Assembly (NCBI GenBank): GCA_000827205.1
Contig: KN832554.1
Coordinates: 2,256,892-2,320,891 of the forward strand
From: Plicaturopsis crispa FD-325 SS-3
Lineage: Eukaryota; Basidiomycota; Agaricomycetes; Amylocorticiales; Amylocorticiaceae
DNA length: 64,000 bases
Reading direction: 5' to 3'
Both the position numbers and the translations under genes were made by a program. The stretch's first letter is position 1; each line of letters opens with the position of its first letter. This document shows, in pieces, positions 43,531 through 48,400 of the stretch. The notes beneath the pieces were generated by a model. That model was not told the DNA's origin, ran no database searches, and saw only the letters and a list, made by a program, of their open reading frames with translations.

Positions 43531-44365
43531 CGGGTTCACCGGAGGACTTCGCTGCACTCTTGTCCACCGTCTCGTCAAGCGCATCGTTCCTATCTCGTCT
43601 TACTCTTCTCTCCGCCGCTACACGTCTCCATCGCATCACATCCAACACTTCCACGCTCAATGTATTTCCTCTCGCTTTCTAAGTACGTTGTTTTCGAACG
43701 CTTCTGCCATACTAACGCTACTCTCCGTTTTCTACTATTATCTATTCAATTGCAATATGTATGTTGACTTTTACACATTCCTGCTATCCATTGTGGGAAG
43801 CCTTTTCGTCGCACGCCCAGTTAGAGTGGCCGGGTAATATTACAGTACTGGTGCGATATCTTGCCTACTTTCCTCGAACTTTTCTTCCTTGCATTGACTG
43901 ATTACGACTACAGATTAGATAGAGATAGACCACAAGCCAAGAAGGATCACAACGGTCACGTCAGGCCCCCGTATGTAGATGCGTTTGATCGTTTGATCCA
44001 ACCCGTACTCAACGCACCATCCATTCAATCAATTCCACACTGCCACACCGCCATATTATTAATGCGACCCCTGCTCATCAGTAGTCTCCAATGCATTGCA
44101 TGTATGAGCAGCACGCTGATCAACGAGCACAAGTCGGCTCGATCATATGTTGCCGTGTGTAATTTGATCGTAGGCCTTTATAACCCTCGGTCTGCTGCCC
44201 ATGGAAAATCCAGCTGTGCTCACTCCCTCCCCATCACCCTACACATTCACTGACTGGTAAGCTCACGCATCGTCTTGTCTCGCCGTCCCTATCGCCCTCT
44301 GATCGTACCGCGTGCAGACTTTCGAGTCCCCTCACATTCATTACACGCTGCATATTACTCACATC
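43531..44365. promoter_or_regulatory. Promoter/5' UTR region of the repeat-peptide gene
   Basis: A TTTATAA element lies near 44176-44182. A likely 5' UTR intron runs 44257-44317 (GTAAGC donor, GTGCAG acceptor). No supported gene upstream; the 130-codon frame at 43861-44253 lacks bias. Confidence 0.4.
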
Positions 44366-45171
44366 ATGCGCTTTACTACGATATTCGCCGCCGTGCTCTG
44401 CGCTTTCGCATCCACCACCTTCGCCCTACCCACCAGCGTCCCTGCTAATGGTGTATCATCTGTCGTACGCCCGGCGAACTTGACCCACGTCGTGATCGAG
44501 CGAGAAACCGCGTTCGGCCAGCCCATCCAAGCGTACGTCATCCCTGACCGCCCATTTCTGCCACTATGCGTGCTAATCGGTGCATTGACAGTAAACGCGA
44601 CTGCGGGATCGTGTGCCAGACGCTCGGGAAGCTGTTCCCCAACATCCACAAGTATGTGCATGGCCTCTTCTATCTGAGGTGACTGGAACTGAATAACGTT
44701 TACTCGAAGGAAACGCGATTGCGGATTTGTGTGCACGGAGCTTGGAAAGCTGTTCCCTAACATTGCGCACGAGTAGGTCCATTTTTGTCACTCTATCCTT
44801 TCTCGAGGCTGAGGTTGCTTGCGACAGCCGTAAACGCGAGGTTGCAAACGAAAAGCGCGAGTGCGGCTGGTTCTGCCAGGAACTCGGCAAACTATTCCCC
44901 AATGTTGCTCACAAGTGTGTTTCATTCATTGCTCTGAAACGGACTGCAGGATGCTGACAGAACCGTGAATACTTAGGCGTGCCCCTGCTCCAGTAGTTCC
45001 GTTCGAAGGGGTGCCCGAAGTGATCGCACCCGGCGAATCAGTCAACAGGTCTTCCGTCTCTCTTTCTGCATAGTCGGTAGAAACTGACCACTCAATTGTT
45101 GACACAGGAAACGCGACTGTGGCGTTGTGTGCCAGTTCTTGCAGGACCATTTCGGCAATGTTATCCACTAG
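44366..45171 (+). CDS. Secreted Kex2-type repeat-peptide precursor
   Basis: Precursor of about 170 residues in six exons: 44366-44532, 44592-44651, 44710-44772, 44828-44914, 44977-45048, 45108-45171. A signal peptide (MRFTTIFAAVLCAFASTTFA) is followed by a ~35-residue leader with an NLT glycosylation site. Four related peptides follow, each after Lys-Arg: DCGIVCQTLGKLFPNIHK, DCGFVCTELGKLFPNIAHE, ECGWFCQELGKLFPNVAHK and DCGVVCQFLQDHFGNVIH. The consensus is [DE]CGxxCxxLGKLFPN. Two spacers (EVANE; a Pro/Val-rich one starting APAPVVPFEG) are also flanked by Lys-Arg. Every intron is phase 2 and sits just before a Lys-Arg codon pair. Dibasic sites between repeats are the known signature of KEX2 processing, as in pheromones, Rep1-type repellents and fungal RiPPs. 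The paired Cys suggest one internal disulfide. I do not know this peptide family. Confidence 0.8.
44592..45171 (+). repeat. Exon-encoded peptide repeats (four copies)
   Basis: Repeat copies begin at 44599, 44717, 44859 and 45115 (first residue after Lys-Arg). Copies 1-3 share LGKLFPN; copy 4 is the most diverged (FLQDHFGN). Exon lengths 60, 63, 87 and 72 nt are all multiples of three. Confidence 0.8.
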
Positions 45172-45430
45172 GTTGAGTGCGATTGGCACGTACGATGGAT
45201 GCTCGGACCATATTTTGGGACTCGCTCAGGCTCAGAATGATTCATGTTGTACTCACGTACCCTGCCTACTACAACGTTAATGATCATAGGGTATTTTTGG
45301 GAACAGATGTGCAATCAATAATTGCGTGAATCGATCATGCAAGACGCAGCATATGTATGCAGGCGAAGCAATACATTGAACGAGTCCACACATGCCTTTG
45401 ATGCACGTCCGTGAATAAATCGCTATGAAG
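45172..45430. other. Convergent 3' spacer
   Basis: Short gap between the peptide precursor and USO1, with no gene. Confidence 0.4.
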
Positions 45431-48400
45431 CTATGCCTCTTCCTCATCCTCGTCCTCGTCAGCTTCGTCTTCGGAAACATCTAGGCCAGCCCCCCGAAGG
45501 CGCTCCTTATCTCGTCTGCGCTTGCTGCTGACCTCGTCCAGCAGGACCAGCAGATCTTCCTGCTCCTTTTCAACCTCAACCCGCTTCTCCTCCGAAGCAC
45601 GTAGCTCTTCCGACAACTTTGCCACTTGACTGTGTGCTGCCGTGAGCTATCAAATTGATGGTCAGTTCAAATAGCCATGCAAGTAGAAGACAGCACGCTG
45701 ACCTCATCGCTGCTGGATGAAGAGGCCTGTTTTAGCTTGGTCTGTAGAGTCTCAATCTCTTGAGCCTGGTTGCGTATAACATCTCGTAATGAGGCGATCA
45801 GCATGGCGCTTTCGGCACTTTGTCCTGATATGGGGGAAGTCTAAGATAACGAATCTCACGCAAGCAAAAAAAGCACACCTGCAGTGGATGACAGAGCATT
45901 GGGATCAGCGGCAAAACCGCGCTGTACCGTGTCTAGAGCAATTGTCGGTTGTTGAGCGAGAAAAGAGGAGGCCGCAGGCCAGAGGCTTACAGTAGTTGGA
46001 CTTCCAGAAGTCTACGAAGGCCCAATCAAACCAGATCTCGCCCTCGCTCTCGGTCACGGGTTTAAGCCCTGGGTGCAGATTTGTTGCAGAGGGATATGGT
46101 AGGACAATGGAGTCGGGGCCGATGGCTTTGAAGCGCTCATCCTCCCTAAGGCGCACCATCCGACCGACCAGGTTGTCGACACCCAGCCTATTGAGGATCG
46201 GGTGTATTGTGGATCGTGTAATCTCGCCTGGATCCCTGTTATACTCGTAGCATATTCCTAGAAGGAATGCACACAGTCCGGGAACCACAACGTCGACTTC
46301 CGACGTCTGATTTGCAGGCTCAACAAGCTGGAATGAACACAGGCGAATATGAGTGACATGCAGAGCACGGAACGACGGATCTTACGCACGACACCTAGGC
46401 CACCGGCCTCAAGAAACTCCCGTACCGCCTTGGGATCTTCCCAAAGCCACTGTGATAGAAAGCAGAGGTACGCGACCACAACACGGTTCCACTCGCGTGC
46501 TTCCCGTTCCGATGTATCTGACCGCGCGCGTGACAGGAAAGACAGGGACAGATTTTCGCTCAATATCTGCAATAGGGTCTGTGGCTCGTCCTCCTCCTCG
46601 ACGGGCAAAGGCTCTACCGGTGGCGGGGGCGCGCCATCTGCTGGAACAAAAAATGCGCCCGGTTCGGTGCTTGGTTCAGCGGATACCGATGGAGGGGTGA
46701 TGGAGCGTGCGAGGGCTTTTGCTTGGGGGGATCCCCGGAGAAGGTGAGCGAAGAGTAGTGTGGCAAAATGTGTGGACGTCACGGCGGCGATATCCAACGG
46801 TGAGCTAGGCGGCACAATGAGCGCGTGTAATAGGGGAGTAATAGGTGGAGGATCGTCTGTGGTTTGTGGTCAGATGATTATAGATATCGAAGGCCAAGAC
46901 CTACTTGAGCCTTCAGGTGGAAGCATTGCCTGAACGATGGCTTGTCGTATCTCCTCTCTGCGGGAGAAGTTCTAGTAGGCGTTAGCAGATGTGAGGCTAG
47001 GCGAAATAACAGCTACCTCGAATACGGCAACAGCAACTCCGCGCAGCTCCAAGCCGTCCTGTTGTCGCTTTCCGTTATCCAGTCCATTGTATTCGCCGTG
47101 TAGAACAAGCTCGACGAGGGCGTCGAGGGCAGAAGCGGGCTCGAGACGGTCCCATTCTTCCCCGTTTGTCTCGGGCACAGGCATGTAAGGTGTCACTGTA
47201 ATCTCCGATAACGGGAAGTCGAGGTTTGTTGGCAGCATCCGCAGAGCCTAACGCGCTTGGTGAGTACATCTGAAGCAAGCACTTTTGTGTATCTTACCTG
47301 TGTTTTGAGGCGTGTTGGCGCGTTCGACGCTAGAGCGATCTCCACAAGGCATCGTAGAAATGCGGATGATTCATGGGTCTGAGGTAGCGTTCAGGATGTT
47401 GTCGATTAACACAAACACTGCTTACATTACCACCCTTCGAACCGACAAGCATTCCCATCACACCGATCACCAGTGCAGCGTTCGCTTGTTTTTGTTCATC
47501 CCAGAATTGGAGTGCAAATTCCTGAGGCGCTGGTTCGTGAATCTGCAGTTGCGGCGGGAAGAGCAGCAGCTGACAGAGGACAGGAGGGAGCGGCGTTTCC
47601 CTAAAATAGCTCTGCAAGAACATGAGTCCAATCCCCTTGTGACGCGACACTCGTTGTGTAGTACCTGATTCGAGGAATTGAAGCGAAGAAGCCCATCAAG
47701 GCAATTGAGAGCGTCTTGCGCGACTACGCCGCCCTCGACGCCGCCTTCCTGCGTGATGGTATTGAATAGCTTTTCGAACGCCCCTTCAAATGCCAGTATT
47801 TTCTGTATATCGGGGCTCTGAGAAATGAGGGACTGAACCATGGTGATGGCCTCTGCAACCTGCCTTAGCATAGGCAAATGCAGACTAACGCTCAGACTTA
47901 CCATTCCTGATAATTTCACGTTTGTCCTCCAGGACCGCAATCACACTGGCTGGTCCCGCAGATGCCTTGAGAAAATAACCCTGCACCACCTGGCGCCGGT
48001 GCTGCAGCAACGTCGATAGGTACTGCAAGGTCGCGAAACGCGTGTAGAAATTCGTGTCGGCGAGGAGCGTGAATAGCGTGTGCGTGGGCTTCTCTATCGA
48101 CAGCACATAGTCGATGTGCTTGTACGCAAGCTCCCTCGAGGCTGGCGGGGCACCATCTTCGACCTCGCACAACGTGTTCAGCGTCTCGAGCACCGCTTTA
48201 CCGATATCCGCGTCGACTTCGGCGTCGTTCTGCAGAACCTCGAGCAGACCAGGGAGTGCGCGCTCCCCGACGTCTTGCTTCCAGTCCCGAGAGAGGCCCT
48301 TGAGCGAGAGAACAGCTGCGCGCCGGTCTGCTAATAGTGTAGCTGGCGAGAGTCGGTCACTGAGTCTTCCGATGGTGTCTGCTGCGGTCTGGGGAGCTCC

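Follow-up and report, generated by a model that had tools for sequence, protein, structure and literature searches.

A candidate KEX2-processed repeat-protein gene of Plicaturopsis crispa with one CX3C peptide per phase-2 exon

The gene described here occupies positions 44366-45171 on the plus strand of a 64,000-nt stretch of Plicaturopsis crispa DNA, which we refer to as the window. Exon joining and translation of six predicted exons give one 513-nt coding sequence of 170 amino acids. A preliminary description of this DNA had proposed six exons, and as a prediction this holds: the joined exons stay in frame, and the five introns are all GT-AG, 55-62 nt long, and in phase 2. Two alignment gaps in the window's Fizzy/Cdh1 gene, of 50 and 59 nt, correspond to introns of like size. 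All five introns of the peptide gene sit inside a Lys-Arg (KR) pair or at most two codons before one, and the KR sites that precede four related Cys-containing peptides, here called cores, are at 44593, 44711, 44853, and 45109. The features of the locus, in window positions, are as follows.

44177-44186, plus strand: TATA-like TTTATAACCC, about 190 nt upstream of the ATG, picked by eye
44257-44317, plus strand: possible 5' UTR intron, 61 nt, GTAAGC..GTGCAG, picked by eye
44366-44532, plus strand: exon 1, by translation putative signal peptide MRFTTIFAAVLCAFASTTFA (cut placed by eye) and most of the leader
44533-44591, plus strand: intron 1, 59 nt, phase 2, GTACGT..CAG, branch-like CTAAT at 44573
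44592-44651, plus strand: exon 2, KR and core 1 DCGIVCQTLGKLFPNIH, core codons 44599-44649
44652-44709, plus strand: intron 2, 58 nt, phase 2
44710-44772, plus strand: exon 3, KR and core 2 DCGFVCTELGKLFPNIAH(D), core codons 44717-44770, the D codon split by intron 3
44773-44827, plus strand: intron 3, 55 nt, phase 2
44828-44914, plus strand: exon 4, RKR, the seven-residue insert EVANEKR, and core 3 ECGWFCQELGKLFPNVAH, core codons 44859-44912
44915-44976, plus strand: intron 4, 62 nt, phase 2, branch-like CTGAC at 44954
44977-45048, plus strand: exon 5, spacer peptide APAPVVPFEGVPEVIAPGESVN, STE13-like AP-AP start after KR, no Cys
45049-45107, plus strand: intron 5, 59 nt, phase 2, donor GTCTTC (weak by eye), branch-like CTGAC at 45084
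45108-45171, plus strand: exon 6, KR, diverged core 4 DCGVVCQFLQDHFGNVIH, and stop, core codons 45115-45168

Within 44828-44858 of exon 4, a 21-nt insert (EVANEKR) separates the KR at the exon start from core 3 and would add a pentapeptide. Exon 5 contains an alternative phase-2 donor, GTTCGA at 45001, with which core 4 is still in frame; depending on which of the donors at 45001 and 45049 is used, the spacer peptide ahead of core 4 could be short or long. Downstream, the gene converges on a minus-strand Uso1/p115 gene whose stop we place by eye at about 45431-45433, which leaves a gap of about 260 nt (45171-45433).

The N-terminus of the precursor, MRFTTIFAAVLCAFASTTFA, has its hydrophobic maximum at TIFAAVLCAFA and was judged by hydropathy and by eye to be a putative signal peptide. 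The leader carries one N-glycosylation sequon (NLT at residue 38). Cutting after KR or RR, combined with trimming of trailing K/R, is predicted to give DCGIVCQTLGKLFPNIH, DCGFVCTELGKLFPNIAHD, EVANE, ECGWFCQELGKLFPNVAH, APAPVVPFEGVPEVIAPGESVN, and DCGVVCQFLQDHFGNVIH, plus the leader. Downstream of the signal peptide this makes seven fragments, of which four are similar cores. After C-terminal K/R removal the cores are 17, 19, 18, and 18 residues long, which corrects the 18-20 residues given for them earlier. Core 4 is closed by a natural stop (after ..NVIH) at just the point where the trimmed cores 1-3 end (..NIH, ..NIAHD, and ..NVAH). Because this natural stop matches the trimmed ends, we predict K/R trimming to His-ended products, and we regard the agreement as a sign of trimming and the best evidence for it within the sequence. 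Eight of the nine Cys in the 170-residue precursor lie in the cores, and no adjacent CC pair is present.

The four cores align as [DE]CGxxCxxLxxxFxN..H, with the acid, C, G, C, L, F, N, and H common to all of them and the two Cys of each spaced CX3C, four residues apart. Of the motif first put forward, [DE]CGxxCxxLGKLFPN, the portion [DE]CGxxCxxL stands in 4/4 cores, but LGKLFPN is found in only three, core 4 being without its G, K, L, and P. That related Cys peptides directly follow Lys-Arg four times is confirmed in the DNA: [KR]R[DE]CGxxC occurs 4 times in the six frames of the 64-kb window, every time at this gene, compared with a mean chance expectation of 0.017 (1 match in 60 order-1 Markov simulations). 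Pairwise comparison of cores 1-3 (15 codons each) gave dN values of 0.16, 0.25, and 0.21 against dS values of 1.16, 1.98, and saturation, with 5, 5, and 8 synonymous codons against 3, 4, and 4 amino-acid-changing codons of the 15. In comparisons of core 4 with cores 1-3, changing codons number 6, 7, and 8 against 4, 5, and 2 synonymous ones; dN is 0.70 and dS 0.86 between cores 3 and 4, and dN is 0.44 and 0.57 in the remaining two comparisons. The codon differences among cores 1-3 are mostly synonymous, whereas core 4 is diverged and as a whole shows little sign of constraint.

A domain search of the genome placed both the S8 and P domains of a kexin at a single locus on contig C7, the P domain being found at one locus in an exon-wise search that may miss others. 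The same genome gave 32 exon matches to S10 carboxypeptidase and three matches to DPPIV_N at one locus. By contrast, PMC9769878 describes three kex2 genes in C. cinerea and other agaricomycetes. The anatomy, the codon pattern of cores 1-3, and the processing enzymes in the genome give good support to the prediction of a secreted precursor from which four related peptides would be released in KEX2 fashion, in keeping with what had been proposed for it at the outset.

When the whole precursor was searched against 5.8 billion proteins, none of 232 candidates reached E ≤ 1, and with the region of cores 1-3 none of 1492 candidates reached E ≤ 10. The reach of this search was annotated proteins of about 94-297 amino acids, from which unannotated or misannotated genes escape, and the negative result is weakened by these length limits and by the dependence on annotation. 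With the neighboring Fizzy/Cdh1 exon as control query, 4715 proteins were returned from 8000 scored candidates; among the matches listed, many are from Agaricomycetes at 69-83% identity, and one row at 100% is the window's own. The closest named matches are Agaricomycete proteins, and the top ones, from Boletales, Polyporales, and Agaricales, lie equally close at 81-83% and favor no single order.

Two protein searches of the genome itself (33.2 Mb, 49 contigs), in which the best candidates were scored, returned only this gene and one weak match, at G000:C7:596807 (E 0.42, one search only); we dismiss that match as chance. The site resembles by eye a reverse-transcriptase element that lies on the minus strand, opposite to the match. 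No Pfam family matched the precursor over the cut-off (one sub-threshold match, PF13884, E 0.029), nor did any in NCBIfam, a bacterial and archaeal library. A PDB search with a 22-residue core 3 query returned zinc-finger proteins (6 sequences, best E 0.0008), which also made up three of the four rows in another search. We rejected a zinc-finger identity: in the two alignments shown, the score adds up matches none of which exceeds 4.8 bits for a finger, the query is without the second finger Cys, and a profile of the four cores misses zinc fingers, with one unrelated match at E 8.5. The core motif strings had no match in the literature searched, beyond whose reach lie the supplementary tables on KEX2-processed repeat proteins (KEPs). 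The family is accordingly unrecognised, as first described, to the extent that the searches made gave no match, and the description holds no further than that.

Only a single copy of the gene was found, and it is set among housekeeping genes. The window has 110 open stretches that are 130 codons or longer; a Pfam scan of 20 of them matched eight, namely Fizzy/Cdh1, a bromodomain, a weak EF-hand, two Uso1/p115 pieces, an aminotransferase class V, Cwc15, and RhoGEF, and left 12 without a match; no known RiPP peptide-modifying enzyme is among the eight. UstYa has 6 matches genome-wide, the nearest on the same contig about 252 kb from the gene. Because of this distance, and because STE3 matches are on contigs C19 and C21, the locus, as judged from its sequence, is neither a UstY-type RiPP cluster nor part of the receptor loci. 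Elsewhere in the genome, G000:C10:439447-443881 holds a divergent UstYa-type pair about 4 kb apart, a possible dikaritin-type cluster, and the STE3-type matches at G000:C21:298104-311359 amount to about four receptor genes in 13 kb, perhaps the mating-type B region.

Dikaritin and ustiloxin RiPP precursors resemble this precursor, as predicted, in having a signal peptide and KEX2 repeats, but their cores are centered on Tyr, whereas the 170 residues here contain no Tyr and no UstY/DUF3328 match lies within about 250 kb. Hydrophobins have an eight-Cys pattern with two CC pairs, and here there is neither a CC pair nor a Pfam family over the cut-off. The preliminary description had set the cores apart from both groups, and this is supported; its interpretation overall is partly supported.

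The closest known systems are the KEPs described in PMC6339444, PMC7329392, and PMC9769878. KEPs share with the gene a signal peptide (here a predicted one), dibasic sites, at least three similar fragments, a short precursor, and, often, orphan status. Under the rule given in PMC6339444, cleavage of a KEP at KR/RR yields four or more fragments, of which three or more are similar; our precursor is predicted to give seven and four, with similarity assessed by alignment rather than by the FIMO pipeline. It differs from KEPs in its CX3C core, unmatched in the searches made, and in having one core per phase-2 exon. The word "exon" is absent from the main texts of the three papers, the supplements of which may list the same layout, and "cysteine" occurs only in that of PMC6339444 (4 times), being absent from those of PMC7329392 and PMC9769878. 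On the sequence evidence, we consider it probable, with good confidence, that 44366-45171 is a KEP gene of an Agaricomycete. Points against this reading are the weak-looking donor of intron 5, the faint signs of constraint on core 4, and the finding of a single P-domain locus.

In the mechanism we propose, the signal peptide would direct the precursor into the secretory pathway, kexin would cut after each Lys-Arg, and a KEX1-type carboxypeptidase would strip the trailing Lys/Arg. Besides four acidic-to-neutral peptides of 17-19 residues, the products would include EVANE and a spacer peptide that has no Cys and begins in an STE13-like way. Oxidation of the Cys and export of the peptides would follow. 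The precursor and its processing are very probably as outlined here. The most likely role of the peptides, and the weakest step of the proposal, would be as a diffusible signal or effector toward other hyphae or organisms; for signaling or biotic interaction as such, we see the chances as evenly balanced.

How the Cys would be bridged has two fair answers, the internal bridge put forward in the preliminary description or a bridge between two peptides, and the CX3C spacing allows a dimer as readily. A variant of the KEP explanation, compatible with it, is that the peptides are covalent antiparallel dimers in which two amphipathic helices are held by two bridges between their CX3C motifs, in a twin-CX3C-like manner. 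The CX3C spacing places both Cys on the same helix face, and the helical moments of cores 1-3 are above those of 97.2%, 95.7%, and 99.8% of 2000 shuffles each (uncorrected for four tests). AlphaFold2, given the 30-residue exon-4 (core 3) peptide with an intron-derived first residue and four alignment rows, modeled residues 3-23 as a helix, with low confidence (mean pLDDT 63.4, pTM 0.23). However, core 4 is without special amphipathicity (above 78.3% of shuffles; 21.7% reach it), and the Gly at position 3 together with the low pLDDT argues for flexibility. Twin CX3C motifs pair between helices in alpha-hairpinins and small Tim proteins, and alpha-hairpinins carry two CX3C motifs within one mature chain; the CX3C spacing and the likely helix are alike here, but each predicted mature peptide has only one CX3C. 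We regard such a dimer as possible, though we would not favor it.

The tendency of three of the four cores to form an amphipathic helix also suggests membrane-active peptides that act on competitors or other cells, as some fungal KEX-released peptides do. The net charge of the cores, 0 to -2 (counting K, R, D, and E only), is unlike that of typical cationic lytic peptides, and the cores are short and have two Cys. Even with the precedent of a Candida membrane-targeting peptide released by KEX1/KEX2, mentioned in PMC6339444, we find this reading unlikely. A structural cell-wall or surface protein with incidental KR sites has its own precedents in KEX2-cut repellents and wall proteins; here the peptide modules coincide exactly with the KR sites and the end of core 4 agrees with the trimmed ends of the others, which makes such a protein very unlikely. 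Secreted peptides that bind zinc or copper through the invariant Cys, Cys, and His and the N-terminal acid would account for the presence of both Cys and of a terminal or penultimate His in all four cores, the diverged core 4 included. Secreted Cys usually oxidize, though, no family in Pfam or NCBIfam is over the cut-off, and the weak zinc-finger matches rest on CxELGKxF without the second Cys of a C2H2 finger, so that metal binding is highly improbable.

An alpha-factor-type sex-pheromone precursor would share the layout of a signal, a leader with a sequon, and KR-spaced repeats, as well as the APAP start of the spacer and a repeat length within the 9-24-residue class of alpha pheromones, and a two-Cys subgroup of ascomycete alpha-factors exists (both from PMC6339444). 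It is the reading we think hardly tenable: the same text has basidiomycete mating pheromones as a-type only, the core sequences differ, STE13 dipeptides precede none of the four cores (only the spacer starts APAP), all 18 STE3 matches are on C19 and C21 and none on the gene's contig, and the genome has no STE2 match, although control genomes gave none either.

Returning to the KEP reading, the exon layout suggests how the gene came about. Cores open exons 2, 3, and 6, and in exon 4 the core follows the seven-residue insert (KR-EVANE-KR). Because all five introns are in phase 2 and at KR sites, each internal exon can be left out without loss of frame, and all 16 combinations of the four internal exons preserve both frame and stop. 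This arrangement suggests that a symmetric phase-2 exon, made up of one KR site and one peptide, was duplicated in tandem as the gene grew, and the gene appears to be a clear example of exon duplication enlarging a peptide family. The duplications are probably old, since the introns resemble one another at most slightly (z of 1.2 to 3.5 in ten pairwise comparisons) and the cores differ at synonymous sites by 0.86 up to saturation. A broader proposal, in which the exon is a peptide cassette, duplication and in-frame skipping set the peptide mix, and CX3C helices pair into covalent homo- and heterodimers, is one we rate as quite unlikely; no description of a covalently paired CX3C-helix peptide scaffold was found for fungi in the literature searched.

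The gene is probably a new orphan of a large known class, distinguished by its one-peptide-per-exon layout and its CX3C core. Orphan status is ordinary for KEPs, because 2560 of 7878 are without homologs according to PMC7329392. In PMC9769878, KEP peptides were detected by mass spectrometry in Coprinopsis and edible Agaricomycetes, and knocking out six kep genes of Coprinopsis left pure cultures with no apparent phenotype. That paper also states that little is known of what fungal KEPs do, and its authors favor biotic interaction as their role. This gene offers four fully predicted peptides, a built-in control in the end of core 4, and a clean structure, and processing, disulfide state, and splicing should therefore be easy to test.
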